A DNA stretch of 44,670 bases from positions 1 to 44,670 of the IMG/VR virus record IMGVR_UViG_3300037502_002032. One strand, 5' to 3'. The notes beneath the pieces are model-generated. The model did not search any database. It worked only from the letters and a program-made list of their open reading frames with translations, and had not been told where the DNA came from. This stretch comes from a virus. A program made the position numbers and the translations under genes. How positions within the stretch are numbered: position 1 is the first letter of the stretch; each line of letters starts with the position of its first letter. Of the stretch, positions 1 to 44,670 are shown piece by piece.

Positions 1-127
1 CGCGGTAAACCTTCTGCAGCTTGACCGAAGACTCGACTTCCTTGCGGACCTTGCTGCGTTCCTTGGACATCTCCGCTTGCTTGCTCGCCAACTTGTCGCT
101 GATCGCGCCTGCCAGGTACTTCATCTG
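1..127. repeat. Terminal direct repeat, left copy (127 bp)
   Basis: Bases 1-127 are identical to 44544-44670. The gene crossing this point stays in frame when the two copies are merged. A 127-bp exact overlap is also a common k-mer size for short-read assemblers, so it more likely marks a circularised contig than a biological terminal repeat. The unique genome would be 44543 bp. Confidence 0.9.
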
Positions 128-3100
128 GTCCAGACTCGCGGTAGCCAAACGCGAAAACGCGGCTTCCCTCGCTTCGTCTAGGTTGGCCGAGAACTGCAGC
201 CACTCCTCTGGCGTCATGCCAGCAGCCAGAGCCTCTTGCTCCGTCTGGAACATCGGCGTCAGGTCGCGCAACAGCTCGGTTGCTTCGATCTGCTCCTCAG
301 TTGCCGTCATGCGGTCGAACACTTGGCGCAGTTCGTTCGACATCATCGGAAGCTGCTCGCCGTACTCGCGCTCGTAGGTCACCGCCAACGTGTCGCGCAG
401 GTTGCTGTACAGGCGACGCGTCCACCGAGCGATGGTCGCGAACAGGCCGCGCTGCTCCTCTGTCGGAGCCTTGCCTTCCAACAGGTACGACTCAAAGTTG
501 TAGGAGAACGCTTCGTGCAACGCCTCCTTGCGCTCGATGGGCAGCGCGTCCCACGCCTCCATGTCCTTGACGCCGAGGGCGTTGAACACCATCTGCATCT
601 TCTTCTGGACAGCCGATGATGCGCCTTCTGCTCGCGCTCGAGCAAACAGCGTGGTCAGCCACCAGTGCGACGCTTCGTGCAGGAACGTGGTCAGCGTTGC
701 CGCTTCGTACAGTTCGATGGTGTTCGTGCGCGGGAAGTACGCACCTTGCGGGTTCTGCTGGCCACCAGCCTGCATGGAATCCGGTTGCTGCGTGGACGGC
801 AGCGCATCCAGCATTGGCTGAATAAACGACTGCGTCAGCGATGCGCTCATCCCGTTGCCAAGCACTTCCTTGGCTACGTTTGCGTTATCAGGAATGGGGA
901 ATGAATCGGGCATTCCCATCAGACGAGCCATCATGCGAGGCGTCACTCGCTTGACTCGACCGTCTGGCAGGATGATGCGTGGGACTTCTCGGCTAGTGGA
1001 CTTAAGCACAGGCGCCGGGTTGCCAGCGTTCGCTGCGTTGGCTTGACCCTTAAACGCGCTTCCACCCATCGTCAGAATCGGCTTGGTCTTGTCGATCTTG
1101 CCTTCTGCCGCCATCTGGTCGATGCGTTCCATCTCCCAGTTCTTGTCCTTGGTCAGCGTTCCAAACTCGCTGTCTGGAGCGTCTTCGATCAGATCCTCAA
1201 GTGCTGCAAACCAATCCTTGCCACCAGTCTTCTCGGGCAAAGGAGGCAGCTTCTGATCGCGCATCGCACGGATCAGCATGCGCGGACGGCGTTGCACACC
1301 GCCGTAGTCCGCAGCGTCGTACACTCCGACATCCCAGTTGTACCCAGCATCCTCCAGAGCTTTGACGATTGCTTGGTACGGCACCGTATCGACGTACTGC
1401 GGGTCGTTCTCGATGGTGACAATCGGTGGCTTGGCCTCGGTGATCACGCGAGCCACCGCGTTGGCGCTGTCGATGTCCGACTGTTCCACCGTGCGGCTTG
1501 ACTTAGCAGCACTGAAGTTCTTGCAGACAGGGCTAGCGTGGAACAGATCAGGCTTGGCCGCAGCAACCTCCTGCGGATCGATGCTGTTAACGTTTCGCGC
1601 CTTGTGATCTGTCTTGTGCGCCTTGTTGAAGGCGTCCATGTACGCAGGGTTGAACTCCACTGCTTGCACGGATTGCGGCGACTCCAACGCAGCTTCCATG
1701 GTTCCAGTGCCAGAGAACCAAGTTGCGACGCGGCGGCCTGCTGCCTGCAAGCTGTCGGGTTGCTGCTGCATAAGCTGGCTCCGACCCGCGATGTTGGCCG
1801 CGATGATGTCTGGCAGGATGTCTACGTACTTGCCATTGCGCTCGGCCCAAACGTGCTGCAGTTTGTTGATCGGGATTGGCCCGGTCGTTTCGCGCAAGGA
1901 GTCGGTCTTGGCAATGATGACTACGTTGTCGCCAGACGGCTTTGCTTCAAACACACCTGAGAACTCATCAGGGTTGGTCTTGTTAGTAGCTCCGAAATAC
2001 AGCTCGCTCAATTTGCGCTTGCCGTACCCGCCTTCCTTGGGGCGCACGGTGCCAGACTGGATCATGTCGTTGACCTGACCCATCGTGGTGCGACGCACCA
2101 TGTGGCTCGTCGTGACGTTTTCGATGTCTGCGATACGTGGCGTACCTTCGCCTCTGAACTTGTCATCAGTTCGGATGACAATTGGACTGTTGGCAATGTC
2201 CATCGGACGAGCTGCCGACGAAAGCGACTGCTCGTTTTGCGCAGAGGGCTGCAGTTTCTGCATCACGCGGAACTTGTTCGCAGCCCACCACTCGCGAACC
2301 GACACCTTGTCCTCCGCTGCGCCGACAATCGCTGCGTTGCTGACCCATTCGACGGCGACGTTGGCGTCCTCCTTCGACATCGGCACCGCCTTCTCGCCCT
2401 GGACCTTGATCATGGGCATGCCTTGCCACCCACGCTGAGTCGGGTACCCCTGCGCATCCGTCAGTTGCTCAGGCTTCGGCGCCACATTGAAGGAGTCCAT
2501 CAACTCCGCCTTCAAGTCTTCCACTCCGTCCAGCAGCTTCTCGCGCTCGGACGCGTTCTCGTCGATTGCCTTGTCCGCCTCCTGCTTCAACTGCAGCTTG
2601 GCTTCCTCAAACGCCTGCGCCTGCGCCGCCGTACGGCCAGTGCGCTGCAGCTTCACGTGCTTGACCAGCAAGGCCAGCACACGGGTGTTGCGGAACACCT
2701 CGTTGAACTTGGCCATCGGGATCTCAAGCTGCTCGCCGGCTGCTTTGGCTTCGGCTACTCGAGACATCACCTCAGGCATCTTCTGGTCCAACACCGCACG
2801 CGTGCCCGTGCCTGCCTGTTGCACCTGCTTCTGCATCTCCTCCACAGAGACACCAGCCTCTTGCGCACGCGTGGCCAAGTCTGCCTTGTCGGCTTCGTTC
2901 AGAACCTGCTCAAAGGTCTCAGGATCGACGTAGACCGTCTCGACGCCTGCCGCCTTAGCCTGCTCGTTTAAAACGCGTGCGTAGGCTTCTGGAGCCTCCT
3001 CAGCCAGCTTGCTGTTGCCGCTGGTCTCCACGATGTCTTGGATCAGCTTCGACCCACGCATCGCGTCTCGCGCCAGCCGCGACTCACGCGACAGGCGGAT

Positions 3101-4287
3101 GGCCGGGAACACTGCCGACAACGGGCCGATGCTCTTCAGCGTCTGGATAATTGTGTCGCTTAACTGCGACCCAAGACTTTGCAGCCCCTCTAAGGTTTCT
3201 GCTTTGGCCTCGACATCCATCCCGCTGCTTTCAATCGACCAGCGGTCGGTGAAGTAGCCAGCAATGGTTTGGCTGACTTCGGTTAGCGTCTCGTATCCAG
3301 AACCTTTCAAAGTGTCGGTCAACATGCGCCGACGCGCCGTCTTCAGCAGATCGCCGCTAAGAGCCGTGGAGATCTTTTTGGCCGCTCCCTCAAGGATCAT
3401 CTTGCGCGCAGGCGCCGACAGGAAACCCCAGCCCGTTGCCTCCAGCGCGCCAGCCGCCAAGCCGTAGCCCAAGCTGCTCTTCTCGGCCTCTTCGTGGCTC
3501 AAGCCCAAGTCGCGCAGTTCGCCGTACTTTCGCCCGCGCTCGACGTAGGCCGACCTGGCGAACACGGCCAGACGGCCTGCTACAGCGGCACCAGCCGCAG
3601 CGCCGCCGGGGCCGAAAGCAGCACCTGCCTTTGCGCCCGCCCAAGCCGCTGGGGCAGCGTACAGCGTGCTGTTGGAGATCTGGCCGATGACGTTGAAGAC
3701 GCCGCCTGTCAGCCCTTCCTCGTCCTTTTGGCGGGCAAGGTCGCGTTCGATCTCTTCCAACTGGAACGACTCACCCAGCGTCTTCTTGCCGCCTCGGCTC
3801 AGAATGTTGTTCCAGATCTCGCCTTGCTCTTGCTGCTGCCAACCCGACGCCACCTGACGGCCCATCCAATACGCATTCAGGAACCCGTCCGTGCGCACCA
3901 GCGAGTCCAAGTCATCGCTGGCAATCTTGGCGAACTCAACGTCCTCATAAAACCGAGCCACCGTAGGGTTGCGGTTCCACAGGTCGCGCCGCTCCATCTC
4001 GCGCTGCTGCAACACCGACTCTGCGAACTTCGGGTCGGCCAACGCCACATCCTCTGGGATGTTCGCTTCCTGCGCCATCCTGCGCGCCAATCGCGTTGCG
4101 CTCGCATCCGTCCCGAAGACAGCGTTGAACGCCCGCATCACGTTCTTGTTGCGCTGCTCTGGCGTCTCAGGCAGAGGCCCAGCGTAGGAACGCTCGGCTG
4201 CTGCGCGGCGCCGCTGCTGCAGATCTTGACCGATCTGCGGCGCGTTCTGGTCCGTGGTCTCGGGAGCGACGAAGTTGAATCCGGTCA

Positions 4288-4288
<1 letters not shown>
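1..4288 (-). CDS. Giant polyvalent ejection protein, N-terminal part (C5 methyltransferase plus zincin)
   Basis: This is the first 1429 residues of a 3007-aa protein that leaves the window at base 1 and continues from 44543 down to 39808. The start ATG at 4288 overlaps the upstream stop (TAATG). Position in the operon matches T7 gp16, an internal protein injected with DNA. Residues about 205-240 form a Gly/Ala-rich, possibly membrane-active stretch. Residues about 845-1165 look like a cytosine-C5 methyltransferase: motif I WFSGTG (857-862), motif IV SPVC with catalytic Cys922, motif VI E960-N961, motif VIII around QRRPR (999-1003), motif IX RLMGMPDSF and motif X GNG (1144-1146). A target-recognition segment would lie at about 1010-1115. 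Then comes HEASH (1204-1208) with a downstream HEAF..FESYL segment (E1259), a zincin pattern typical of phage polyvalent proteins. Methylation and proteolysis are inferred from motifs. Confidence 0.85.
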
Positions 4289-8118
<3,830 letters not shown>

Positions 8119-8130
8119 GCTGTTTATCCG

Positions 8131-8847
8131 TTAGGCGTAGCCGTTGTAGTCGCGCCAGCGCAGCACCTCTGCGCTTTGGTTGAGTAGCTGACCAGACGAT
8201 CCGAGAAGCGTGACGCCTGCTGCCCGTGCTGGGTTGATGCCTGCGCGCATGGCGCTGACGTTCCCGGCCTGCACAGCCAGCATGGAGCCCTGAGCTTCGA
8301 TGTTCGCACGCTGCATGCGCGCTGCACCCGCTTGGCGAGCCGCGTTCACATCCATCGTGTAGAGCGCACGCTTCTTCAGGTACTCCTGCGAAACGGCGAC
8401 CGCTTGCGCGCTTCCCTGCCCGCCTTGGATCCCTCGAGCACCTTGGCTCGTACGCGTCGCAGACTGCTGCTGCGTGTAAGCCAGCGCAGCCATGGACATC
8501 TGCTGGCGCGACCCCTCAAGGATCTGCTGCGCTTGGTTCTCAGCCAAGCGAGCGTTGATCCGCGACATGTCGCTCTGGAACCGCAGCGAACTCTCTTGGC
8601 TCTTGAGCTGGTAGCGAGCCGACTTCGCTTGGTAGTAGCCGCCGATGGCAGATGTGACGGCGGACCCGATGCCCATGACCAACCCCGCCGTGGCGAGGTC
8701 GTTGATCAACGCGCTGTTGTTCGCGGGCGCGTTCAGATCCATCGCGACTTGGTTGCCCGATGGACCTTGAAGGGACGAGTTAAGCATCCCCTCCACCTGC
8801 TGGTTGATGGGCGACCCAAACGTCCCAGGGTCTTGGAACAGTACCAT
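8131..8847 (-). CDS. Small internal virion protein (T7 gp14-like position), 238 aa
   Basis: The chosen ATG at 8847 is preceded by GGAGG six bases upstream. A TTG 12 bases earlier is less likely because it is the start of that ribosome binding site. The protein has a hydrophobic Gly/Ala segment at about residues 50-70 (ATAGLVMGIGSAVTSAIGGY), followed by a long Ala/Gln/Arg-rich helical region. This one-membrane-segment plus helix layout, immediately after the nozzle gene, is typical of the smallest ejected core protein of T7-like virions, which may form the outer-membrane part of the ejection channel. The role is inferred from layout and position. Confidence 0.65.
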   Translation of the reverse strand: MVLFQDPGTFGSPINQQVEGMLNSSLQGPSGNQVAMDLNAPANNSALINDLATAGLVMGIGSAVTSAIGGYYQAKSARYQLKSQESSLRFQSDMSRINARLAENQAQQILEGSRQQMSMAALAYTQQQSATRTSQGARGIQGGQGSAQAVAVSQEYLKKRALYTMDVNAARQAGAARMQRANIEAQGSMLAVQAGNVSAMRAGINPARAAGVTLLGSSGQLLNQSAEVLRWRDYNGYA

Positions 8848-8848
8848 T

Positions 8849-11800
8849 CTAGCCTCCAATGCTCGTTTCCAGAACCATGCCGATGACGGTCAGCGGAACC
8901 GGGTTGTCTTGTTGCACGACCACTTGCCCGGCAGCTTGCCAACTAGGCGACAGCAGCACTGGGACTTCGATGCTCTGCAACGTCTGCGCAGTTGTCGGCG
9001 GCTGACTCGGCACCAAGGCCGTCTCGCTCGGTCCGATCTTGAACCCTGCGCTCTCGTACATGCGAATCCACGCACGGTTGACGTTCTTCGTCCTACCTTG
9101 GCCGTAGCCGTCCACCTGCATCACCGCAGGCAGCGTCTTTAACTGCGCGGTGTACGGCAGCCCGACATGCACCTTGGCGGCAGCGTAGTCCAAGGTAATC
9201 GATCCGCCGGCAACCACGCGCTGCGGGTGGATCTTGCCGTCCGCAAGGATGCTGACCGTCTTGCCGTTGAGGTGCGACAGACCGGACACCGTTGTCGAAG
9301 CCGGCGCGTTGATCACCGTCTTGGCGTTGTCCAAGCACACTTGGTCCTCGACCGCGTCGATGTCGAACGGCTCTAGGCGCTCGACGTAGCGGGTGCCGCT
9401 GCGGTTGACCACCACGTACAGGCGATCCTCCGTGCCTTCGCTGACAACCGCGCAGGACTCAAACAAGCCGTCCGTGTCGTGCCAGTGCCAGCTCGTCACC
9501 TTCTCCTCGGGAATGTACGTCATGCCCAGCAATCGGCCCGTGCTACTAATGCACCAGACGATGGGCTGCGGCGCCTTGGCGTAGGCGAGGTCGAGGATCG
9601 CGTAATCGTCGAACAGATGCGCTGCCCGAATGGACAGGTCGCCCGTCATGTAACCTTGCTGGTCGTTGCTGAACCCCATCTCGCGCACGTGCCCGCCTCG
9701 AGCAGCACAGAACACGACGATGTTGTTGACCACCGCTGGCTGCACGTTGCTCGCGCCGACGTAGCTCTGCGGGCGCACGCTGATGTTGGTGGGCGATAAC
9801 GCATCTCCATCGACTGCGCCGCAACGCTGCTCGCTGCTTGCCGAGAACAGCAACAGCGACCCCATCGGGACGATGTGGCGGATCTGCGACTGCTCGCGTG
9901 CCGCAATCTGGAACGCGATGCGGTCATCCGACAGAACAGGGATGTGGTAGGACAGATCGGACTCTGTGCCGCTGCGCGTGGTCCAGACGTTCTGCGGAGC
10001 CACGTTCGTGCCAGCGAACACTCGGCGCTGCTCAAAGTAAGCAACTGCTCGAGGGTACTCGTTGGCGTTGAAGAACTCCGTGTCGCGCAGCGGGATGGTC
10101 TTGCCGCCATCCACAGCGATGTTGTCATCGCGGAAGAAGAGTTCGCGGCGGCCTAGGACAGTGGTCAAAGCCGTGGTGCCCGAGATCTCGGTGCCGTCAG
10201 GCTTGTCGAGCAGGTAGAACTTGCCAGCGTTGGCTCCGGTGGTGATGCGCTTGATCCAGTAGATCTGGTCGGCCACCAGCGGGCTTGGCAACGCAGATCC
10301 GCCGGCAATCACCGAGAACGACACAGGGTCGTTGTCCTTGAACGCTGTGCCAGCCCACGTGAGGACCAGCTTGCCAGCGCCTTCGATGCCAACCGATGCG
10401 GTTTCGGTGCTGTATCGTTCTACAATGCCAAGTAGACCGTAGTTGCCGACATCCAGCTTGTAGACCTTAAACCGAGCTGGCACTTCGCGAACAGCGCCAG
10501 TCGCATCTGTTCCTACGAAGTAGCGCCACGTGATCGTGTTGTGCGCGCCTGCAGCGTAGATGTTGTTGCGGACCGTCACGGTCTCGCTGGCTGCGGACTC
10601 GACATCGTCAGAGTAGACGGCGGTTACGCGGTAACTGTTGTCGAGCGTGCTGACTTGGTAGAGCGTCTGCAGGTTGCCACCGACAAGCGACCACGTGTTG
10701 GAACCGGTTCCTGTGCTTGCAGTCTTGATGACTGGCGAAAGCAACGTGGCATCTGTGTAGATGTTGAACGTGTCATCAGTCAGTGGGTTGACGTAGTAGT
10801 TCGTCCCCAAGCTGATGTACGCAGGCACTGTTCCTACCCCGATACCTGCAAACGTCACAGTTGCTCCAGGCAGCAGTTGATGCCCGGTGACGTTGACCAC
10901 AACTGGCGCACCGTTGGTTCCACTCCAAGTCACAGTGGAATCCATCAGCAACGGCTGACCTGTATCGTAGCTTTGCAAGAACAGATTGGTGCCGCCGTTG
11001 TTCTCAAACGAGCGAAGCACAATCCAACGCTTATCGTCCAAGTAGCTGCACTTGGTGTCCGTAACGTAGACGGTGTCGCCTTCTGCAAACTGCTTGAACT
11101 TGTAGGTCGAGTCCGAGTCTGCCCAGCGCGCCGTGTAGCGGTCTGCGTTGCCTCCTGCGCCCCAGTAAGGCCAGAACGGGACTGCATGCCTGTTGCCGTA
11201 TCGCGGAGTCGCCGCGACGTTCGTAGGCGCTGCAACGCGTGGCTGGAACTGGATTGGCTCGACTGCCCACTTGCGTGCGGCGTAGCGGCGCACCTCAACC
11301 GGGGCGAACTTCGGATGCACCAACGTCAGAACGTCGTTGCTCTGCACGTAGTGGATGTCGAACAGATCATCGGCAGTAAACCCTACCGGAGTCCCGAAGT
11401 AGATCTCGTAGGTTCCATCAACGGGCAGCGCATACCACGCAGAAGTAATCGACGGATCGAGATCTGTGCCTGCCGGTGACGGCAAAGCATTGATGCACTC
11501 GTAGGTCGTTCCCGTTTGCGTAACGAGATCGCCAGGCGTGTAGCGGTAGGCAATCTTCCAGCTACCGCTTCCTGTAGTCGTGAGGTTGATGCGGTTGCTC
11601 TGAGTTGCGCCAGCACCAGCTTTTGCTGCCGTCTCGCACAGCGCGATTTGGTTGCTACTGACGTTGTAGACGTAGTACGTCACACCTTCGACCAGCGGCG
11701 ATGGCAAGGTGGCTCCACTCTTCAGCACGCGGACGGCATCGCCCGTGCTGAATCCGTGGTTGACGGTGGTTGTGATCTCGTCACTGCCAGTGTTGGTCGA

Positions 11801-12143: not shown

Positions 12144-14360
12144 TCAGCGTCCGCTAATCCAAGGTGCGTTGTGCTCAGGGTGAATGCGGCGGTCCATCGA
12201 GTCCGCAGAAGCAGCCTTGCTCAGGTACGCACCCATCATCTGGATGCACCGCTTTGACTCTGCTGCGCCTACGTCACCCTTGATGATCGGGCCAGCCAGC
12301 ATGCTCGCCAAATGCCACGCAACCACCATGCGGAAGTTGGGCGACCACATGCGCGGAGAGCTGGGCAGCTCGGTGTAGCGCAGCGTCGCCTCTTCCTGAT
12401 CGGTGTAGAGGCACAGCACGCCGTCCGCGTTGACTTCGATGGAGTAGTCAACGCTCTGCTTGTAGTCGTCCGTTGCACCGGGCGGCAGCACGCAGATCGC
12501 ACGCAGGAACCGCGACGGCAGTTTGTACGCGTAGTCCCATTCGATGCGGTCACTGGTCGAGGTGTCCGCGAAAGTCACCTGCTCCAGCGCAACCTTGCGC
12601 GTTGCGAACTCCCACGCGTGCATCTCCAGCGTGCTCTGCAGAGCTTGCAGGTAGAACTGCGCACACAGCGTGGACTGCGCGGAGCCGTCTGGCGGATCGA
12701 TGCTGGTGATCGCCGCCGTGTCCCCGATGAACGACAACGCGAGGTTGCAGACAGCAACGTCTAGCGTGGTGATGGCGTAGCTGGACAACTGGATGTCGCG
12801 CCACGCGTCGAACGCGTCCTGCTCCATCAGCGTCATGCCTTCGCCCGTGTAGTGGACATCGTTCGGGATGAGCGGGTAGTCCTGCACTTCGAAGGTGCGC
12901 ATGTAGGGGTCGGCCAGCGCCTCGGTCGCAATCGCCTTGTTGACGATGTCCGCGTAGACCCACGTGGTGATGTCCTTGATCTTGGGCTGCACCCACGGGA
13001 TCTGCGACGCGGGCTTCGACCACAAGCCGCGATCCACCAGCGCCTGACGCACTGCGGTCTTCAGCCGCTGCAACGCCGTGCGGTAGTTGTTGGCAAACAA
13101 CGGGTCGATGGTGTCGCCCTCGCCTTGCGCGAAGAAGATGCCGATGCACTGCAGGGTGTCGCCTTGGATCGCCGCAGCGGAGACGGCAGCGTCCAGTGTG
13201 TCGAGCAAGCGAGCGAAGCAGTTGTTGCCTTCGCCCGGAGCCCAGTAGGTCTGCTGCGCCGAATCGAACCAGCCCATGGCGTAGTCGTTGTCGCGCAGTT
13301 CACGATGCCCCAAGCTGCTGCCGCCGACTGCCAGCGACACCGCATACATCGTCTCGCCGAAGTATTCCTGCAAACGGATGCCCAACCCTACGTGGTAGGC
13401 CGCACGCTCAAACGTCACCCACAACCGAGTCGGCCCCGTGAACGGGTTGTAGACCGGGAGCACATCGTGGTGCGGCGGGTAGTTGAAGCCGGGCGGGTAG
13501 GGGTTGTTCTTGGTCGCGTTGACCTTGCCCTCAAACGGCGACCACGGGAGGAAGTAGGACCACTTGTGCCATTCCGTGTTTGCCGGCGGAAGCACCTCAA
13601 ACGTGTCGCCAGCATCGATGGCGCTGGGGAACGCTGTAGCGACGGTGATGTCCCGCGCCTTGGTCCCGCCAACCAAAGCGACGTTGCTGATCGTTCGGAT
13701 CTCGTTGAGATTGCTGCCGCTGCTGACGCTGGTGCATTTGAGGCGGCACCCTTCTAGCGAAGAGGTCCAGACCCCTGTGCCGACGCCGCCCCACTCTTGG
13801 CCCAACAGCATGCGGCTACGCATCACGGTGGTCGAGTTGCCTAGGCTGCTTGCAACCCACCGATAGGTGAACGTCTCGCCTACCTCAATCGGGGGGACGA
13901 ACGTCTCGTTGACGGTCCATACCTGACCAGATGCGCCGATGTTGGTGACACTGGACACCGTGTGCGTCACGCCCGTGCGGACGCGCACGATGGGGAAGCC
14001 ACTTGGCAGCGCCTCTTCGAGGAATTGCTGGCACTGGAACTGAGTCGTGCTGGTGGCGACGGTGACGCGTCCCGTGCCGGGGTAGTCCGACATCCCCGTG
14101 ACGTAGGGATCCCAGAACGTCAAGTAGCGCAGCCCGCTGATGGCCACGCCCGACAGGCTCAAGGTTCCGTAGTTCGTCCAGATGCTGCCGGGCATCACGA
14201 ACGTGTCGGAGTAGGAGCCTCGAGCGAAGTTGTTCGCTCGGATGTTGGCATCCGTAGACCACAGCGCCAGGTTCGTGTGCTTCAGCCACCACGATTGCGC
14301 GTCAGCAGAAGGGCCAGCGTTGCTTTGGCCAATCGTCAGATAGAACTTGCGAACGGCCAT
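12144..14360 (-). CDS. SGNH esterase fused to tail tubular protein A (head-tail adaptor), 738 aa
   Basis: This is one uninterrupted frame with two unrelated parts. Residues 1 to about 525 look like an SGNH/sialate-O-acetylesterase-type hydrolase: GQSNA with candidate nucleophile Ser13, GGSSLG (346-351), AQGEGD (411-416) and DVHYT with candidate Asp501 and His503. A beta-rich insertion appears to separate the first block from the rest. Residues about 530-738 match a T7 gp11-type adaptor in size and content (CNLALSFIG near 538, then conserved Trp/Leu-rich helices), which joins portal to nozzle. A GGAGGT ribosome binding site precedes the ATG. The enzyme may deacetylate surface polysaccharide during adsorption. 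The substrate is unknown. Confidence 0.75.
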   Translation of the reverse strand: MAVRKFYLTIGQSNAGPSADAQSWWLKHTNLALWSTDANIRANNFARGSYSDTFVMPGSIWTNYGTLSLSGVAISGLRYLTFWDPYVTGMSDYPGTGRVTVATSTTQFQCQQFLEEALPSGFPIVRVRTGVTHTVSSVTNIGASGQVWTVNETFVPPIEVGETFTYRWVASSLGNSTTVMRSRMLLGQEWGGVGTGVWTSSLEGCRLKCTSVSSGSNLNEIRTISNVALVGGTKARDITVATAFPSAIDAGDTFEVLPPANTEWHKWSYFLPWSPFEGKVNATKNNPYPPGFNYPPHHDVLPVYNPFTGPTRLWVTFERAAYHVGLGIRLQEYFGETMYAVSLAVGGSSLGHRELRDNDYAMGWFDSAQQTYWAPGEGNNCFARLLDTLDAAVSAAAIQGDTLQCIGIFFAQGEGDTIDPLFANNYRTALQRLKTAVRQALVDRGLWSKPASQIPWVQPKIKDITTWVYADIVNKAIATEALADPYMRTFEVQDYPLIPNDVHYTGEGMTLMEQDAFDAWRDIQLSSYAITTLDVAVCNLALSFIGDTAAITSIDPPDGSAQSTLCAQFYLQALQSTLEMHAWEFATRKVALEQVTFADTSTSDRIEWDYAYKLPSRFLRAICVLPPGATDDYKQSVDYSIEVNADGVLCLYTDQEEATLRYTELPSSPRMWSPNFRMVVAWHLASMLAGPIIKGDVGAAESKRCIQMMGAYLSKAASADSMDRRIHPEHNAPWISGR

Positions 14361-22062: not shown

Positions 22063-22389
22063 TTATTCCCCCAGCATGGTGGTGGTCTTCAAGGTGCCCG
22101 GCGGTTGCGCGGTTGCGCCACCGAGAATGGTTGCCGCTGGGCCTTGAAGGTTGCGCGCCTGATCGGCAGCAAGAAGTGCCCCGACATCAGGCTTGCGCGC
22201 ATTTGCTTTGGCGGATTCTTCCGCTGCTTGTCGCTCTGCAGACAGCGATCTGGCAAGCGCGCTGGCTTGCTCTCGCTCTTGAGCCCTGAGAGCCTTCTTC
22301 TGACTGCTCGCTTGTTGTTGCCCGCCATAGACGGCAGAGCCAGCAGCAGCAGCAGCAGCGATGACAGCGATGGTGGTTGCGACACCCAT
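22063..22389 (-). CDS. Small Ala-rich protein with N-terminal membrane segment, 108 aa
   Basis: Residues 3-22 (VATTIAVIAAAAAAGSAVYG) form a hydrophobic helix. They are followed by a Gln/Lys/Arg-rich helix (residues 25-65) and a low-complexity tail. The ATG overlaps the upstream stop as TAATG. Similar small proteins are often encoded next to podoviral portals; their role is not settled. An ejected virion peptide or membrane-associated assembly factor are both possible. Confidence 0.65.
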   Translation of the reverse strand: MGVATTIAVIAAAAAAGSAVYGGQQQASSQKKALRAQEREQASALARSLSAERQAAEESAKANARKPDVGALLAADQARNLQGPAATILGGATAQPPGTLKTTTMLGE

Positions 22390-22838
22390 TAGAGTTCCTT
22401 GCAGTAGGTTGCTTCAAGCATGGAGTAGCCACGCCGAGTCAGTAGCTTGCCGACGTTGCTGTTCATGCTAGGGACTTCGTTGATGCTTACGATGACAGCG
22501 CCAACGTCGTGCGACCATTCCTCAAGCTCCTTGAGCAGCAAATGGCCAACGCGTCCGCGATGCTCGACCTCCACCCACCACGCCAGTTCTGCGACAATCA
22601 GCAGTGACGGGTTGCACCACATAGGGGCGACCATGCCTGCGATGGCGCCGACGATCTTGCCGTCCTTCTCAGCAACGAACATCCCAACGGTTTCCAGCGA
22701 CAGCAACCTGTAAAGGCTGCTGACAAGTTGGTCCTCGTCCCAGTACTTGGCGTAAGGCGAACTGTCCGAGAAGTGCTTGCCGAGGCTGGCAAGCTCGTAA
22801 ACGTCATCGCCCGTGGCGTGCCTGATGATCAGAGCCAT
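22389..22838 (-). CDS. GNAT-family N-acetyltransferase, 149 aa
   Basis: The strand and helix order fits the GNAT fold: IIRHATGDDVYELASL at the start, GMFVAEKDGKIVGAIAGM as strands 2-3, LIVAELAWWVEVEHRGRVGHLLL as strand 4 and the acetyl-CoA phosphate loop (HRGRVG, about 94-99), and a C-terminal GYSMLEATYCKEL. It overlaps the terminase gene by ten bases and precedes the portal genes, so it is made with packaging proteins. The substrate is unknown. It might modify a host or virion amine. Confidence 0.8.
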   Translation of the reverse strand: MALIIRHATGDDVYELASLGKHFSDSSPYAKYWDEDQLVSSLYRLLSLETVGMFVAEKDGKIVGAIAGMVAPMWCNPSLLIVAELAWWVEVEHRGRVGHLLLKELEEWSHDVGAVIVSINEVPSMNSNVGKLLTRRGYSMLEATYCKEL

Positions 22839-29881: not shown

Positions 29882-30271
29882 CTACTCGACTGTACTGTTC
29901 GACGAATCAGATCCAACAACAACTTGGCCCGATTCGTCGAGGATGATCGTCACCACGCGCAGCGCCCATCGCTTGGGCTTGCCTCGAGCACCGCGTTTGG
30001 CCCAGCCATGCACGTGAAAGTGCGCGCCTGCATGCAGCCAGTGCCGCAGACGAGGCTCGGCTATCGACTTGTTCACGCGTGCGGAAACAGACGATCCTGC
30101 GCACGCTTGGATGCCGTAGATGCCCGGCTTGTCGTGATGCACCGCCACGATGTCGATGCACCCGAACAGGTCTTGGCGGATCCGAGCGTGGACGTTCCAC
30201 TTCTCGACCACTTGGGCCTCCATGCCGCTCTCTCGTAGGTAGTGCAGGCTTCTGCTAGTGGGGCTGCTCAT
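29882..30271 (-). CDS. Resolvase-like PD-(D/E)XK nuclease candidate, 129 aa
   Basis: The order E21 in a helix near SLHYLRESGMEAQVVEKW, then DLFGCIDIVAVH (Asp about 46), then GIYGIQACAGSS, follows the Holliday-junction resolvase or restriction-like fold, where D and E/Q-x-K positions bind metal. Here Q replaces the usual E in the E-x-K position and Lys is not adjacent, so activity is uncertain. The ATG at 30271 overlaps the methyltransferase stop as ATGA. The upstream extension of this frame is not supported. Confidence 0.5.
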   Translation of the reverse strand: MSSPTSRSLHYLRESGMEAQVVEKWNVHARIRQDLFGCIDIVAVHHDKPGIYGIQACAGSSVSARVNKSIAEPRLRHWLHAGAHFHVHGWAKRGARGKPKRWALRVVTIILDESGQVVVGSDSSNSTVE

Positions 30272-31533
30272 GGTTGCTCCAAGCGTTGCATCAGTAGGTT
30301 CCACGCCGTCGCTGCGCACTGCGGCACCTGACCGTTGCCGAGCGCATGCAATCTGTTGGTTCGATTCTTGGGCGGCAACGTCACTCGCGGCGTCGTTTCC
30401 CAGTTGCCTTGCCAGAATCCGGCGGCAGAGCGGTCCACCCACGCGGCCAGCCCATCAACTCCTCGACCCACTCCGCGTTCAGCCGCATCGCAGGGTCCGG
30501 TGTCGCCACCTCGGTGTTCAGCGCCCGCACATTGCGGTTCTGCTGCGACGGCGCTCCGTTGTTGTGCGCATCTTGGCAAGTCGGCGTCGGCCAAATCCTG
30601 CCCGTCCCGCCGTCCTCGCGGACAAAGTCGGTCAGGCTGATCCCCGGTCGCGCTGCGCTGTTCGGACCGTTCCTCGACCCACTGCTCTTCGCATCGCCCG
30701 CAGTCGGGGTTGGGATCATCCGCACCGCCAACGCCAGCGGCGGCGTGGCCACTTTGCCCTCCGCATGCCGACGAGCCCACGACTCCTGCGTCTCGTCCGT
30801 CACCTTGCCAGCTCGCGGCGTTGGAAACATCACCGTGCGCGTCAAGCTGTTCATGCTGCCGCTCGCCCGCGTCGCGTTGTTCGCGTCGTCCGCCGTTGGT
30901 GTCGGCAGCATGTTGACCGCGACATGCTGCGCCAACGTCAGGCCGAAGCCATTGCCGTTCTTTTTGGCCATCTTGCATCGCTCTCGACGATCCAGCACAC
31001 CTTGCAAGTTGTCCGTTTCGTACAGATTGGCGGTCGGCGTCGGCAGCGAGGATCCAGATGCGGTCGCGTCGGTGAGGTGCTCCGACATGTCTCGCGCCGA
31101 GCACGCACCACTCCGCATCGTACCCGATCTCGGCCAGCGACCCGAGAACTCGATGCAGGCCCCGTCCAACAAGCGTTGGGGCATTCTCCACGAAGCAGTA
31201 CTTGGGTCGTACTTCGCGAATGATGCGCTGCATGTGCCACCAGAGCCCGCTGCGCTCGCCGTCGATCCCTTTGCCTTTGCCCGCGATCGAGATGTCTTGG
31301 CACGGGAATCCGCCGGCAACGACATCGACTCGTCCTCGCCATGGGGTTCCGTCGAAGGTGGTAACGTCATCGTGAATCTCCATGTCGGCGGGCAAGTAGC
31401 CATCCGCTTGACGCGCCCGCAACACGCGCCGGCAGTATGGGTCAATCTCGACGGCACACACGGGAGCGTGGCCGAGCAGCATGCCAGCGAGGATCCCACC
31501 ACCCGCGCCGGCAAACAGATGAAGCTCTCTCAC
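30268..31533 (-). CDS. Cytosine-C5 DNA methyltransferase, 421 aa
   Basis: Motif I is LHLFAGAGGG (4-13), motif IV is GGFPCQD with catalytic Cys78, motif VI is ENA (116-118), motif VIII is HRRDRIWIL (154-162) and motif X is ALGNGQVP near residues 398-405. The target-recognition region between VIII and X is low in hydrophobic residues and rich in Arg, Gln and Asp. The GTG start at 31533 overlaps the upstream stop (GTGA). A second long open frame (30381-31514) overlaps most of the gene. It probably methylates new phage DNA against host restriction; the target is unknown. Confidence 0.88.
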   Translation of the reverse strand: MRELHLFAGAGGGILAGMLLGHAPVCAVEIDPYCRRVLRARQADGYLPADMEIHDDVTTFDGTPWRGRVDVVAGGFPCQDISIAGKGKGIDGERSGLWWHMQRIIREVRPKYCFVENAPTLVGRGLHRVLGSLAEIGYDAEWCVLGARHVGAPHRRDRIWILAADADRQSVRNGQLARCAGSSRAMQDGQKERQWLRPDVGAACRGQHAADTNGGRREQRDAGERQHEQLDAHGDVSNAASWQGDGRDAGVVGSSACGGQSGHAAAGVGGADDPNPDCGRCEEQWVEERSEQRSATGDQPDRLCPRGRRDGQDLADADLPRCAQQRSAVAAEPQCAGAEHRGGDTGPCDAAERGVGRGVDGLAAWVDRSAAGFWQGNWETTPRVTLPPKNRTNRLHALGNGQVPQCAATAWNLLMQRLEQP

Positions 31534-31724
31534 TTCTTGCCACCCAGCATCTTGTGGGTAGCCAACAGGTCGATCTCGTAGTCCATGGGGTAGTGCTTCA
31601 ACACGCGAGCGGCCCAGCGCCGAACGTCCCTTGGCACTCGAGGGGTCTGCTGCGGATCCAACAGGCCGCGCATGAGGTCGCGTGCGTATCGCAGCGCCCG
31701 CAGTCGCTCGTCGGGTAAGGTCAT
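31530..31724 (-). CDS. BPSL0761-like small protein, 64 aa
   Basis: MTLPDERLRALRYARDLMR, then DPQQTPRVPRDVRRWAARVLKHYP, resembles a small family widespread in proteobacteria and their prophages and often annotated BPSL0761-like. The function of that family is not known to me. The ATG at 31724 overlaps the upstream stop, and its own stop overlaps the methyltransferase start. Confidence 0.6.
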   Translation of the reverse strand: MTLPDERLRALRYARDLMRGLLDPQQTPRVPRDVRRWAARVLKHYPMDYEIDLLATHKMLGGKK

Positions 31725-32002
31725 CCGTCCGTTCCTCTGATCCACCGTTTGGAGAAAACCGAGGACGCCAACGCGTCGGGCGCCACCCCCAGATCGTCCT
31801 TGTGAGATTCACTGGAACGCCCTGGAACGTCCTCGGCCCCAACAACACGTTGGGGAATGTCGTTATGCCGCCGCTCAAGCAGTTCTTCAAGAGCGGAGAT
31901 GATCGCTACTGCGTTTGATCCAACGTAGCCACTCTGCGCAAACTTGCGGCAGTGCTGGTAGGTCAATAGCAGATCAAGGATTTGCTGGTTGGTTGGGACC
32001 AT
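31721..32002 (-). CDS. Small early protein, unrecognised, 93 aa
   Basis: The start is taken at 32002 (MVPTNQQILDLLL) after AGGGGTG. A longer form from 32020 is possible. The first 50 residues form helices with a conserved-looking VGSNAVAIISALEELL. The last 35 residues look disordered. It overlaps the upstream gene by 29 bases. No family was recognised. Confidence 0.55.
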   Translation of the reverse strand: MVPTNQQILDLLLTYQHCRKFAQSGYVGSNAVAIISALEELLERRHNDIPQRVVGAEDVPGRSSESHKDDLGVAPDALASSVFSKRWIRGTDG

Positions 32003-39807: not shown

Positions 39808-42800
39808 TTAGCGTGACGCACCGGATGCCTTGCCGCTCATCACGCCCTGCGTCCACTGGACGAAGTCGGGATCGTCGTACCTGTCGTTGCTGACATCCGT
39901 TATGAACTGCGCAGGCTTGCCCAAGACGCTGGTCGGCAAACCGCCAGTGATGATCGACAGCAAACCGAACATGTCGCGCACCTCGCGGCCTGTGACTTCC
40001 TTCTCGAAGTCCACCAAGCCCAGTGCCTCGCCAACCTCGCGGCCAGCAGCGACGGCTCCTCGGCCAGCTCGCATGATGTAGTTGACGGCAGGCGCGTTGG
40101 TGATGCGCTCGTCGTTCGGGTCTTCGGTAGTCAGCCCATACAGAGCCAAGGAAACCTGCCCGACAAACGGGAACATCGAAGCCGTGCCGCGACCGACGCT
40201 GACAAGCACCTTCTCGCCGATGGCGCTGGTCAACTCCTCGTCATCCTCATCGTCAAAGAATGCACCCGAGAACAACTGCATGATCGCGTCCGCCACGAAA
40301 AGCGGAGCCGCGTAGCCAAGGATCAGTTGCTGGTAGAACCGCGCCGTCAGCGGAGTCCTCAGCAATCCCACCTCGCGGATCAGGTTGCCGAAGTCGGTCG
40401 TGTTGACGTTGAACAGCCAGTTGAAGTAGCCGCCGAACTGCAGCATCAACCGCATGAACGGGCCACCCTTCAGCAGCTTTGCTTGGTCCTCGGGGCTCAA
40501 GCTGGGCGAGTTGTCGCGCACCATGTAGTCCGCGTACTTGACCGCCTCTGCGTGGATCTGCTCAGGGTTCATTGCAGATACGTCGTGCTTGTCTTGGTAC
40601 GTGTCGTACGCACCCTTCCAGATCGCCATGTCCGAGATGTTCTGGAAGAACGTCTGCAGGAAGTAGGCGTTCTTGTTCGCCATGCGCTTGAGCTTCTTGT
40701 ACGCGCCTGGATTGGACACCAGAGCGTCAAGCATCTGCGCCATCTCGAGCATCTTGCCACGCGTCCTGTTGTCCATGAACGGTGACTGCATGGTGATCCA
40801 CGTGCTCAGTCGTTCCGCACCTTCGGCTCTGCTGTAGGAGCTAACGATGTACTGACGTAGGCCGCTCATCACGGCGCGGACGCCGAGCTTGCGCACCGCC
40901 ATCGGGATCGCCGTCAAGTTACCGACTGCGTTGGCCACGCCGCCGAACAGCGCGTCCATTCCAGACCAGCGCCGCAAGCGGTCGAGCACCTGTGTACCAA
41001 ACGCAGATCCACGCGTAGACGTTGCCTGACGCGCAGCCGACACCATCCACGGGATGATCAACTCGGCGTAGGCTTCGGGATCCACTGCACCCAACGCGCT
41101 GTTGCGTGCCTCAAACGGACGGATCATGCGCAGCACACCTTGCACCGTTGGCTGCACGTGGATGAAGCGCACCGTCTCGTCGATGTGACGCAGCACCATC
41201 GTGAGGTCCAAGTTCAGCGGCTTGGTGTACGCCTCGACGCGGTCGTTGGCCCAGCCGCTTTGCACAGCAGGGACAGCCGAGCGCATGTCGCCGTTGATCT
41301 CGTTGATGTTCTCTTCCGACTGATGGCTTGCCACCAACATCGGGTCCGTCTTGGCCGGGACGTAGCCGCCACGGTAAACGCCGAACGGCGTCTCGATGTT
41401 CTCGTACCGCACCTCACGGAAGTAGTAGCCGAACACCTTGAAGTGCGCCTTCTGGAGGTCAGGCTTGATCTCCTCCATCATGTCCCACACGCCTTGCGCG
41501 AAGTCCCAGTGCTTCTTCGTCAGCTTCTGGCTTTCGTGCATGCGATTGATGAACGCCTTCCACTTGCTGTCATCGAGCTGGCCCAACTGCTCAACGCCCC
41601 AGTTGCGGCCTAGCAACAGCTTGCGGTAGTTGCTCATGTTGCCCATGTGCAGGATCGCACCTAGCAACTCGGCAGTGTTCTTGAACGTGTAGCCGATCTC
41701 CGACGCTGGGATCTCGTCCCACTCGACCTCAAGCTCCGACAGCATTGTGGCGTAGCGTTCGACCAGCTTGTTGCGCTGCACGCTGTACGCGTTGATTTGG
41801 CTCTTGATCGGGTTGTAGACCAGATCCCACCACGCGCCTCGACCGCCATCGACGGCAACGGTCCACTGCTCCATGCCGCGCATCCACGCCTTCACGTTGC
41901 TCCAGAACTTCAGGAACTTCTGCAGCTTTGTCGCGGACTGCGCTACGCCCATCGCCGCGAACGGCTTCGGGTGCTTGGACAAGCTGTCTGTCAGTTGCCG
42001 CTGCGCCTCCTCAATCGCAATCGTGCGGTCGCCCAGTTCGACGATGCGCTCTGCTCGGGCAATCTCCAGCATGCCCTTGATCAGCACATCAACGTCCTGC
42101 AACTGCGAGTAGGTGAGCTTCTTGTGGTCACCCGTAGTCCGTGCCTGCAGCACCTGCGGATTGATGATCTGCTGGATGCGCTCCCACATCTGCGGGTTGT
42201 AGCGGCTCACCGCCTGCAACTGCTCCGCTGCTCGAGCAACCGCGACCTCTGGGCCGAACCCGTACAGAGCCGCCACAGCACGGGCTGCGTTGTACAGCTC
42301 GGTGTTGTAGTTCTTGGCGATGTTCTCCTGCGGGCTTTGGAACAACCGCTTCATGCGGCCCTTGATCTCCGCGATCTTCTTCTCCGCAACACGCGCAGCC
42401 TTTGCCTTCATGTGCTGCACCAACTGCAGGCGCTTGGCTTCCAGCGCCTTGAACACTCGCGGCTGGCCCTTCTTGTCCTTGACGCGCTTGCTGGACAGAG
42501 CATCCATGACCTTCTGGTTCATGCGCCCCTCCTCAGCTTGGTGCTTGGCACTGCTAATCTTGCCAACTTCCATGTTGTCGATGGCGTCTTCCGCCACCGC
42601 ACGCGCCGCCGAGACCAGCGTGGACACCGGCACGTAAGCACGGCGCCCCTCTGCCTTGCTCACGCGCACCTGCTCCTTCGCCTTCTCTAGCTCCTGCACG
42701 GCCATCTGCACATCAGGCCCCCACGCAGCATCGATCTTGGTGAGGATGTCGTTCAGCGCAGCCGACTTGGTCGCAGCGTCTGCTGCCAACGCGGAGTCCT

Positions 42801-44670
42801 GCGGGTTCTCGCGAGATTTCCTGACCGCATCTGTGGCGAGCGTGCGGGCAGTAGTCTTCTGCTCCGTCAACTGCTGCATCTCGGGGTTCTGCATGGCCGT
42901 CTCGCGTGCCTTCTGCAGAGCCTCGCTCAACGCCGCAGCCTTCTCCTCGGCCAACTGCAACTGCGCCGCAGACGCCTCCCTCGCCGCCTTCATGTCGGGA
43001 TCGAGGTCTTCCATCATGCGCTGCAGTTGGCTCTGCAACCACTGAAGCTCGGTTGCCACCAGCTTCGTGCGTGCCTCTTCGTGCATGGCGTCCGCCACCA
43101 CGCCTTCCGCAGCCTCGGCGCTTTGGTAGTCGCCAAACCGCTCCAGCATGATCTCGTCCGTCTGCGCCTCAATCGCATCCTGCATCGCAGGCGCCTCAAA
43201 CAACATGCGCAAGAGCTCAGGGCCTCCACCGGGAATGCCCCACAGCGCCGCGACTTCCTGCAGGCTGACGCCGTCTTTCTTCGTCAGCATGCTCGCCAAC
43301 TTGTCCAGCACCGGACCTTGCAGCGTCGGCTCGTTTAGCTCAATGCGCTTCTCGGTAGCAGCAACGCGCTGCTCCATCTCGCGCAGGCGCGTGCGCTCGG
43401 ACTGCAGCCCACGGTGCAAGCTGCGGATCTGCACAGCAGCCTTCTGGCGGCGACTGAGCTTGAGCCCGTCCTCAATCTTGGCGAGCTTTTCCTGCTGCTT
43501 GGTGACCGCTTCCTGCAGCTTCTTCTGCTCTGCCTTCGCCTTCTTGTATTCCTTCTCGCCCAAGCCGGCGATCTCGTTCTTCACTCGAGCACGCGCTGCC
43601 TGCAGGTTGTCCTCTGCCGTCTTGCGCTGTGCGGCGAAGTTGCGCAGGTTGCTCTGCAGCTTGTCGCGCTCGCTGCCGGTGTAGGTCGGACGCTTCTGCG
43701 CGGCTTCCACATCGACACGCGCCTTGGCCAAGTTCGACCGCTTCTGCGCGACCTTCGTCTGAGCCCGCTTGACCTTGTCCGCTTCTGCCGCCAGATCCTT
43801 GAGGAACGCCTTCGTGTCCTTCTCGCTGACGGTCTTGCTCTTCTCGGACATCTGACGGTAGCCGTCTTCTGCCGCCTTGAGCACAGCCTCGGCTTCCTGA
43901 AGTTGCGTCGAGAACTTCTCAACCTTCTCTTGCAACTGCGGCGTGCGCTTGTCGCCACGGCTGTCTAGCTGGTCACGGACCATCTGCATCGACGCCTTCA
44001 GGTTCTCGACGCGCTTGACCTCGTCGGGCAACTGCTTGTCGATGTCCGCCTGCTCGGCTTCCCACTGCTGCTCAGTCATGCCCTCCGCAAGCAGCGTCTT
44101 CTTGCTCTTCTTGCGGGTCTTCTCGTAGTTCTGGCGAGCCTCCTCCACCTTGGGAAGGAAGGCCGCAAGCGCAGCCTCGGCAGCGTTCACTGCTTGGCGC
44201 TGGTCCTCCATCTGCTTGTTCGCCTGGAACAGCATCTGGCTCTGGTCCAACCCCTCAATCGGCGTGCGCGGCAGATCCTTGAACTCCTTGCGCAAAGCCT
44301 CCAGACGCGCTTCCGCGTTGGTCACGCTGGCACGAAGCTGCTCCAGCTTGGCTTCCTGCTGCACAAGCAGATCCTTGTCCTGCCGCACAGAACCGCTGGG
44401 CTTTGCCGGCGGCTTGAGGTTGGGGATGGCGCCGTTCATCACGTAGCGCACCACCTCCTGCACATCGATCTTGTTGCGCAGCGTCGGCGTGAACTCGTTG
44501 CCCTGCTCGTCGAGCGCAATCTTGGTCTGCAGCCAGCGGATGACGCGGTAAACCTTCTGCAGCTTGACCGAAGACTCGACTTCCTTGCGGACCTTGCTGC
44601 GTTCCTTGGACATCTCCGCTTGCTTGCTCGCCAACTTGTCGCTGATCGCGCCTGCCAGGTACTTCATCTG
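39808..44670 (-). CDS. Giant polyvalent ejection protein, C-terminal part
   Basis: This continues the frame that enters from base 1. The join makes 3007 codons with no stop; bases 44544-44670 duplicate 1-127. Residues about 1390-2080 are a very long, charged coiled coil (Lys/Glu/Gln/Ala). Residues about 2100-2600 are helical with RMKRLF-like basic patches. The C-terminal 400 residues contain YADYMVRDNSPSLSPEDQAK, then MLQFGGYFNWLFN, and a membrane-like segment (LILGYAAPLFVADAIMQLF, about 2830-2850). This end is typical of giant podoviral ejected proteins. It stops 20 bases before the membrane/coiled-coil gene. Confidence 0.85.
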   Translation of the reverse strand, partial: QMKYLAGAISDKLASKQAEMSKERSKVRKEVESSVKLQKVYRVIRWLQTKIALDEQGNEFTPTLRNKIDVQEVVRYVMNGAIPNLKPPAKPSGSVRQDKDLLVQQEAKLEQLRASVTNAEARLEALRKEFKDLPRTPIEGLDQSQMLFQANKQMEDQRQAVNAAEAALAAFLPKVEEARQNYEKTRKKSKKTLLAEGMTEQQWEAEQADIDKQLPDEVKRVENLKASMQMVRDQLDSRGDKRTPQLQEKVEKFSTQLQEAEAVLKAAEDGYRQMSEKSKTVSEKDTKAFLKDLAAEADKVKRAQTKVAQKRSNLAKARVDVEAAQKRPTYTGSERDKLQSNLRNFAAQRKTAEDNLQAARARVKNEIAGLGEKEYKKAKAEQKKLQEAVTKQQEKLAKIEDGLKLSRRQKAAVQIRSLHRGLQSERTRLREMEQRVAATEKRIELNEPTLQGPVLDKLASMLTKKDGVSLQEVAALWGIPGGGPELLRMLFEAPAMQDAIEAQTDEIMLERFGDYQSAEAAEGVVADAMHEEARTKLVATELQWLQSQLQRMMEDLDPDMKAAREASAAQLQLAEEKAAALSEALQKARETAMQNPEMQQLTEQKTTARTLATDAVRKSRENPQDSALAADAATKSAALNDILTKIDAAWGPDVQMAVQELEKAKEQVRVSKAEGRRAYVPVSTLVSAARAVAEDAIDNMEVGKISSAKHQAEEGRMNQKVMDALSSKRVKDKKGQPRVFKALEAKRLQLVQHMKAKAARVAEKKIAEIKGRMKRLFQSPQENIAKNYNTELYNAARAVAALYGFGPEVAVARAAEQLQAVSRYNPQMWERIQQIINPQVLQARTTGDHKKLTYSQLQDVDVLIKGMLEIARAERIVELGDRTIAIEEAQRQLTDSLSKHPKPFAAMGVAQSATKLQKFLKFWSNVKAWMRGMEQWTVAVDGGRGAWWDLVYNPIKSQINAYSVQRNKLVERYATMLSELEVEWDEIPASEIGYTFKNTAELLGAILHMGNMSNYRKLLLGRNWGVEQLGQLDDSKWKAFINRMHESQKLTKKHWDFAQGVWDMMEEIKPDLQKAHFKVFGYYFREVRYENIETPFGVYRGGYVPAKTDPMLVASHQSEENINEINGDMRSAVPAVQSGWANDRVEAYTKPLNLDLTMVLRHIDETVRFIHVQPTVQGVLRMIRPFEARNSALGAVDPEAYAELIIPWMVSAARQATSTRGSAFGTQVLDRLRRWSGMDALFGGVANAVGNLTAIPMAVRKLGVRAVMSGLRQYIVSSYSRAEGAERLSTWITMQSPFMDNRTRGKMLEMAQMLDALVSNPGAYKKLKRMANKNAYFLQTFFQNISDMAIWKGAYDTYQDKHDVSAMNPEQIHAEAVKYADYMVRDNSPSLSPEDQAKLLKGGPFMRLMLQFGGYFNWLFNVNTTDFGNLIREVGLLRTPLTARFYQQLILGYAAPLFVADAIMQLFSGAFFDDEDDEELTSAIGEKVLVSVGRGTASMFPFVGQVSLALYGLTTEDPNDERITNAPAVNYIMRAGRGAVAAGREVGEALGLVDFEKEVTGREVRDMFGLLSIITGGLPTSVLGKPAQFITDVSNDRYDDPDFVQWTQGVMSGKASGASR
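44544..44670. repeat. Terminal direct repeat, right copy (127 bp)
   Basis: Identical to bases 1-127. Treat as the overlap of a circular assembly. Confidence 0.9.

Follow-up and report, generated by a model that had tools for sequence, protein, structure and literature searches.

A C5-cytosine methyltransferase domain embedded in a giant Bbp10-like polyvalent protein of a BPP-1-like podovirus

The window analysed here, the whole stretch of 44,670 bases of the IMG/VR virus contig IMGVR_UViG_3300037502_002032, encodes a protein of 3007 amino acids (aa) in which a complete C5-cytosine DNA methyltransferase domain is embedded. As 127 bases are identical at both contig ends, closure gives a circle of 44,543 bp on which, according to the open reading frame listing, the gene runs on the minus strand (as do all genes and domains of the window described below) from an ATG at 4288, in a TAATG overlap with the gene upstream, across the junction to a stop at 39808. 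Residues 1-1429 of this predicted Bbp10-like polyvalent ejection protein are located at 1-4288 and the remainder at 39808-44670, with 44544-44670 repeating 1-127; the latter part includes a coiled-coil-like region. The relatives ctQRb9, DC33 and zth2-2 span the junction without a gap (high-scoring segment pair over aa 1178-1460, 36-37% identity) and, since this homology crosses it, the junction is not an artefact.

The methyltransferase domain with motifs I-X occupies aa 858-1155 (824-1717) and is matched by PF00145 (DNA_methylase) with E 2.2e-28 over profile positions 7-318 of 324, at 100 bits against a cut-off of 22. Motifs I, IV with its cysteine, VI, VIII, IX and X are complete and in order, with FSGTG at residue 858, SPVC at 919, END at 960, QRRPR at 999 and GNG at 1144 of the 3007-aa protein; the codon of the catalytic Cys922, which is invariant in alignment A1, is located at 1523-1525, and motif VI reads E-N-D rather than E-N-V. 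M.HhaI and M.HaeIII are the nearest solved structures by sequence, with nearly the full length of M.HhaI aligned by phmmer (E 2.7e-10). An AlphaFold2 model of the domain based on an alignment of ten sequences (pLDDT 85.7, pTM 0.85) displays a Rossmann methyltransferase fold, and its top Foldseek match in the PDB is again M.HhaI (E 2e-15, probability 1.00, TM 0.69); further matches, next in rank by structure and by sequence, include DNMT2 tRNA methyltransferases. Ten homologues with 38-63% identity all retain the catalytic residues, although for motif IV this invariance is in part a product of the search itself, as CKNFSAAK, HASPVCKN and SPVCKNF were among the patterns used. Nine pairs of related domains have ratios of nonsynonymous to synonymous substitution rates (dN/dS) of 0.03-0.29, indicative of purifying selection. 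The first-pass annotation had assigned motifs I, IV (Cys922), VI, VIII, IX and X to this region, which is borne out by the motif positions and the nearly full-length match to the DNA_methylase profile, and the structural match to a Rossmann methyltransferase agrees with it.

Outside aa about 600-1178, the protein is a member of phrog_9880 (E 1.9e-76 for the part at 1-4288 and 4.7e-144 for the remainder) and homologous to Bbp10 of phage BPP-1, with homologues of the giant protein also encoded by Limnohabitans phage DC33, ctQRb9, zth2-2 and Acinetobacter phage Ab9. The large polyvalent protein-associated domain 22 (LPD22) at aa 68-139 (3872-4087; PF18834, E 5e-9, above cut-off) shares one frame with PF00145, the joining of unrelated domains with an LPD-type domain which characterizes polyvalent proteins. 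A predicted zincin-like metallopeptidase domain with approximate ends (419-751) is recognized by its HExxH motif, HEASH at aa 1204-1208 (665-679), and by 25-39% identity to the corresponding region of BPP-1, DC33, ctQRb9 and Ab9, and a conserved Bbp10-family C-terminal block at aa about 2041-3007 (39811-42711) by phrog_9880 and homology to the relatives.

The gene order is also that of BPP-1, with major head protein, tail, internal virion protein, transglycosylase-position protein and the giant gene in succession. The gene at 4288-8118 encodes a 1276-aa protein placed by synteny at the position of the transglycosylase-type Bbp11, with no match in Pfam, PHROG or phage-collection searches, and the gene at 8131-8859 a Bbp12-like protein (phrog_418 'internal virion protein', E 2.8e-5) with 38-40% identity to the syntenic genes of ctQRb9, DC33 and zth2-2. 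Tail, internal virion, major head protein and portal genes are encoded on the same strand as the giant gene, a late or virion neighbourhood as is typical for polyvalent proteins of phages. Because of gene position and membership in the Bbp10 family, the 3007-aa protein is probably injected with the DNA. The first-pass annotation of the protein stands in part: a 3007-residue frame over the circular junction, the methyltransferase domain and the ejection-protein position in a BPP-1-like podovirus are supported by the end overlap, the family match and synteny, and the span 1-4288 assigned to the giant protein contains its first 1429 residues, with the rest of the frame at 39808-44543 outside that span. 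Homology to T7 gp16 is not supported: the two proteins correspond in gene position only, and the true homologue is Bbp10. As an aside, the record of Limnohabitans phage DC33 (PQ492659.1) is classified as Inoviridae, yet contains the genes of a BPP-1-like tailed phage.

Between the N-terminal block and the zincin-like region, the members of this family carry different domains: PBECR1 in BPP-1, ART-PolyVal in DC33 and ctQRb9, and GNAT together with PBECR5 in Ab9. Another 11 BPP-1-like scaffolds, taken from viral contigs, lose their homology to the window protein from aa about 600 to about 1142-1181; this part matches ART-PolyVal in seven of them and PBECR5 in one, and in none the methyltransferase. 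As the slot occupants differ among relatives, the methyltransferase is one cassette among several. It is preceded by a small conserved domain (aa 704-832, 1793-2179; DKFRGxGT...RPKEGGYGK...VDILP) with 43-44% identity to counterparts in the contigs L262 and L263, an apparent second cassette judged by sequence comparison; L263 combines the window scaffold and the same small domain with ART-PolyVal, not with the methyltransferase. An AlphaFold2 prediction of aa 690-850 from three sequences (pLDDT 44.5) was useless as a model.

The methyltransferase is bracketed by two near-identical linkers, QQPDSLQAAG at aa 842-851 (1736-1765), which lies mostly in a low-confidence N-terminal stretch of the AlphaFold2 model, and QQPDSMQAGG at aa 1167-1176 (761-790), a pairing with p = 0.0015 in a permutation against random sequence-window pairs of the same protein. 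The same test on 30 proteins gave p < 0.05 for nine (Fisher 1.3e-7). Linker motifs vary between proteins, but repeat within each protein, such as EGRTLEQPAR on either side of the domain in L011, LYSRA[AP] or close variants at seven sites in L021, QFALDPK/P at six sites in L123, KFSLK-type motifs at five or more sites in L114, SFSI at several sites in L110 and D[IVL]R[FM]SY at three sites in L104. Of 20 BPP-1-like scaffolds, 18 have h-x-Q immediately ahead of the zincin-like region (5.9 expected), and LF[DNS]Q-type motifs precede the ART domain in several. Such linkers are candidate cleavage sites and suggest the anatomy expected of a self-processing polyprotein; autoprocessing of polyvalent proteins by zincin-like domains has been predicted, with the processing of P1 DdrB cited (Iyer et al., 2017; PMC5512222). 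With near-identical linkers on either side and a predicted zincin-like domain following, the methyltransferase is probably cut out as a free enzyme. Two further giants, L105 and L111, display PLFQ and LYQR repeats along their length, possible cleavage signals like the motifs of L021, L123, L114, L110 and L104.

The phage encodes two METHYLTRANSFERASES, the embedded domain and a separate C5 frame outside the giant protein. The latter, a 540-aa open frame at 30268-31890 with uncertain exact start, is matched by PF00145 (E 4.6e-35), with GGFPCQ as motif IV and motif X near the C terminus. A second PF00145 match in another frame is present in 15 of 24 embedded-domain genomes (all of at least 28 kb; some second frames short or split) versus 1 of 19 genomes without the embedded domain, a control of BPP-1-like phages only (Fisher p = 1e-4), and within the window's own scaffold group alone the count is 3/3 versus 1/19 (p = 0.003). 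This association fits a lifestyle in which cytosine methylation is essential. It makes a role of the embedded enzyme confined to the modification of progeny DNA less likely, though still conceivable. With a second C5 frame present, progeny-DNA protection may be shared between two enzymes. CCGG occurs in the window at 0.56 of the Markov expectation, the lowest among 4-base palindromes, a depletion which cannot be tied to either methyltransferase.

A search with the domain only, in which embedding in a giant frame was not a criterion, retrieved homologues at 32-65% identity which are located, with few exceptions, inside frames of about 1,800-5,600 aa, and up to 7,060 aa when the whole contig is read. 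After masking of the domain, the embedded homologues fall into 27 clusters, a few of them incomplete or permuted (about 25 unrelated scaffolds); the domain has therefore moved between scaffolds. The tree unites all 32 embedded rows in a single group (SH-aLRT 95), which also includes five shorter frames, and the label embedded or not changes 3 times versus 15.5 times in shuffles. The independent contigs L011, L092 and L101 share domain order and scaffold with the window. BPP-1-like tail genes are found beside the carriers L011, L092 and L113, and for the neighbour genes of other carriers PHROGs yielded only two virion or lysis matches among ten tested. Among 84,980 genomes searched for close prophage relatives, nearly all matches are stand-alone Nostoc enzymes at 26-34% identity; the embedded form was found in one Bacteroidota genome, Prevotellamassilia timonensis (L023), as a 3989-aa protein at 35% identity. 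Occurrence of the domain is wider, and the observation better supported, than first claimed.

Variants of this arrangement were also encountered. In the L023 protein the zincin-like segment is repeated, with HEYAH at 2030 and 3011. L020 (frame aa 3414-3690) and L134 harbour circularly permuted C5 methyltransferases in giant proteins, with motifs IX-X before I-VIII. Members of the embedded clade in short frames of 439-996 aa are found in L013, L090, L014, L093 and L096, and those of L013, L014 and L090 adjoin a terminase-like gene, with later fission of a giant protein as a possible origin. Elsewhere in the window, a SASA-type sialic acid-specific acetylesterase domain (PF03629, E 1.7e-8) is inserted into or fused to the tail protein at 12144-14360, upstream of the tail-family match. 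The 1097-aa tail protein at 8849-12142 matches a family of 712 positions and has a weak, sub-cut-off match to a carbohydrate-binding module (PF02839) at aa 195-225, which suggests an insertion. An acetyltransferase (phrog_1249) is encoded at 22389-22838 between the terminase large subunit and portal genes.

The domain with its fold and intact motifs, the scaffold, the exchange of cassettes, the repeated linkers and purifying selection in relatives are established, and the explanation that in our view accounts best for them, held with moderate confidence, is an ejected polyvalent protein whose C5 cassette methylates the entering DNA before phage genes are expressed. The 3007-aa protein would be packaged in the head of the BPP-1-like podovirus and would reach the host together with the phage DNA or shortly ahead of it, its middle slot carrying an exchangeable effector cassette, here the complete C5-cytosine methyltransferase. 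Excision at the linkers by the predicted zincin-like metallopeptidase would provide a free methyltransferase of about 320 aa, which would use host S-adenosylmethionine to methylate cytosines in the entering phage DNA and would shield this DNA from restriction enzymes before phage gene expression. The first and the last of these steps have precedent, as the virion component DarB of P1 acts in cis to protect the entering DNA (PMC5512222) and gp69 of podovirus JC1, a DarB-like protein of 4515 aa, has been found in virions by mass spectrometry (PMC9144972). Tentatively, this explanation might be extended to a clade of C5 methyltransferases that would be a standard cassette of virion polyproteins in many unrelated phages, each with its own cleavage motif and peptidase, such that a self-processing multi-enzyme polyprotein would put 5-methylcytosine on the entering genome.

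Several points weigh against protection by an ejected enzyme. Methyltransferase activity of the domain is predicted, the enzyme could outpace restriction only if it were fast or present in many copies per virion, and no virion proteomics of Bbp10 or of the window phage was found in the literature. The zincin-like region of the window protein has no Pfam match of its own, being recognized by HExxH and homology, and the linker test reached significance in nine of the 30 proteins, not in all. The second methyltransferase may already methylate progeny DNA, which would make the ejected one redundant unless its specificity differs, and in motif IV Val takes the place of Pro directly before the catalytic cysteine.

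Among the alternatives, the methyltransferase could act in the producing cell, where a late giant protein would methylate replicating or packaging DNA and its presence in the virion would be incidental. The genes are located in the late block, classical phage C5 methyltransferases modify DNA during replication, and activity after ejection is itself presumed, which all speak for such a role; the frequent second C5 frame among carriers would, however, often make a late virion-fused copy redundant, and the other slot occupants, ART, PBECR and GNAT, belong to domain types for which an action on the new host has been proposed (PMC5512222), so that we regard this alternative as rather unlikely. We give somewhat less credit to a host-directed effector, an ejected domain that methylates host DNA or, DNMT2-like, RNA such as tRNA and thereby disturbs host expression or signalling. 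ART and RNase-type domains in the slot of relatives have been proposed to act on host molecules, and DNMT2 enzymes are among the next-best matches, but the best matches in sequence and fold are the DNA enzymes M.HhaI and M.HaeIII, with a target-recognition region of ordinary size, and the co-occurring second C5 methyltransferase suggests DNA protection. In most C5 enzymes Pro directly precedes the catalytic cysteine. Its replacement by Val, together with an activity that is predicted, could indicate a catalytically dead domain retained as a DNA-binding or structural module, which we consider highly improbable given catalytic motifs that are invariant at 38-63% identity, even with CKNFSAAK as one of the search patterns, and the low dN/dS. 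That the fusion is an assembly artefact, with two genes joined over the contig ends or a chimeric contig, might be suspected for a frame crossing the junction of an IMG/VR contig without isolate, but is rejected as next to impossible, since the methyltransferase and its flanks lie inside the contig away from the junction, relatives align through the latter without a gap and L011, L092 and L101 independently show the same order and scaffold.

To our knowledge, DarA/DarB of P1 provide the main known example of virion components that protect incoming DNA. If ejection and methylation of entering DNA by the polyvalent protein hold true, the C5 cassette in about 25 unrelated giants would establish DNA methylation ahead of expression as a general route around restriction, the range of enzymes in polyvalent proteins would grow by a new type, and shielding of incoming viral DNA from bacterial restriction enzymes may be widespread. 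The protein-specific repeated linkers make the old prediction of self-processing giants directly testable, while comparison of the slot, i.e. of whatever lies between the linkers in other phages, provides a route to new effectors.

Compared with the known enzymes, aa 858-1155 share the full domain, motif order and fold with M.HhaI and M.HaeIII (PF00145) at 16-20% identity in structural alignments, but have SPVC instead of their PC motif and are embedded in a 3007-aa protein. With the Bbp10 family of BPP-1, DC33, ctQRb9, zth2-2 and Ab9, the window protein has in common LPD22 near the N terminus (weak in Ab9), the zincin-like region, the conserved C-terminal block and the place of the gene after tail, internal virion and transglycosylase-position genes; unlike the window phage, none of these five has a PF00145 C5 methyltransferase. 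The likeness to P1 DarB and the DarB-like giants of the Bcep22/JC1 podoviruses is a methylase domain in a giant protein; those, however, combine an adenine N6-methylase of EcoKI/TaqI type with a helicase, whereas the window protein has a C5 enzyme and no match to a helicase (SWI2/SNF2) or adenine methylase in a profile search of either half, and membership among DarB proteins was rejected for lack of the helicase and the wrong methylase class.

As far as described in the text of the survey of polyvalent proteins (Iyer et al., 2017; PMC5512222), these resemble the window protein in being giant and multidomain, with an LPD domain, a zincin-like motif, an effector cassette and a virion gene neighbourhood. 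The only methylases described in that text are adenine methylases, mostly monophyletic and joined to SWI2/SNF2 helicases; its main text makes no mention of C5-cytosine enzymes, and repeated bracketing linkers are likewise absent from it, the word 'linker' having no occurrence. In a survey of jumbo phages, cytosine methylases are named as DNA-modification enzymes of phages, and the passages found there do not connect them with polyvalent proteins. No description of C5 methylases in polyvalent proteins was found in the literature searched, a weak negative as most subscription papers and supplements were outside the search. Polyvalent proteins with methylases are thus already known, while the C5 enzyme type in them appears to be new.

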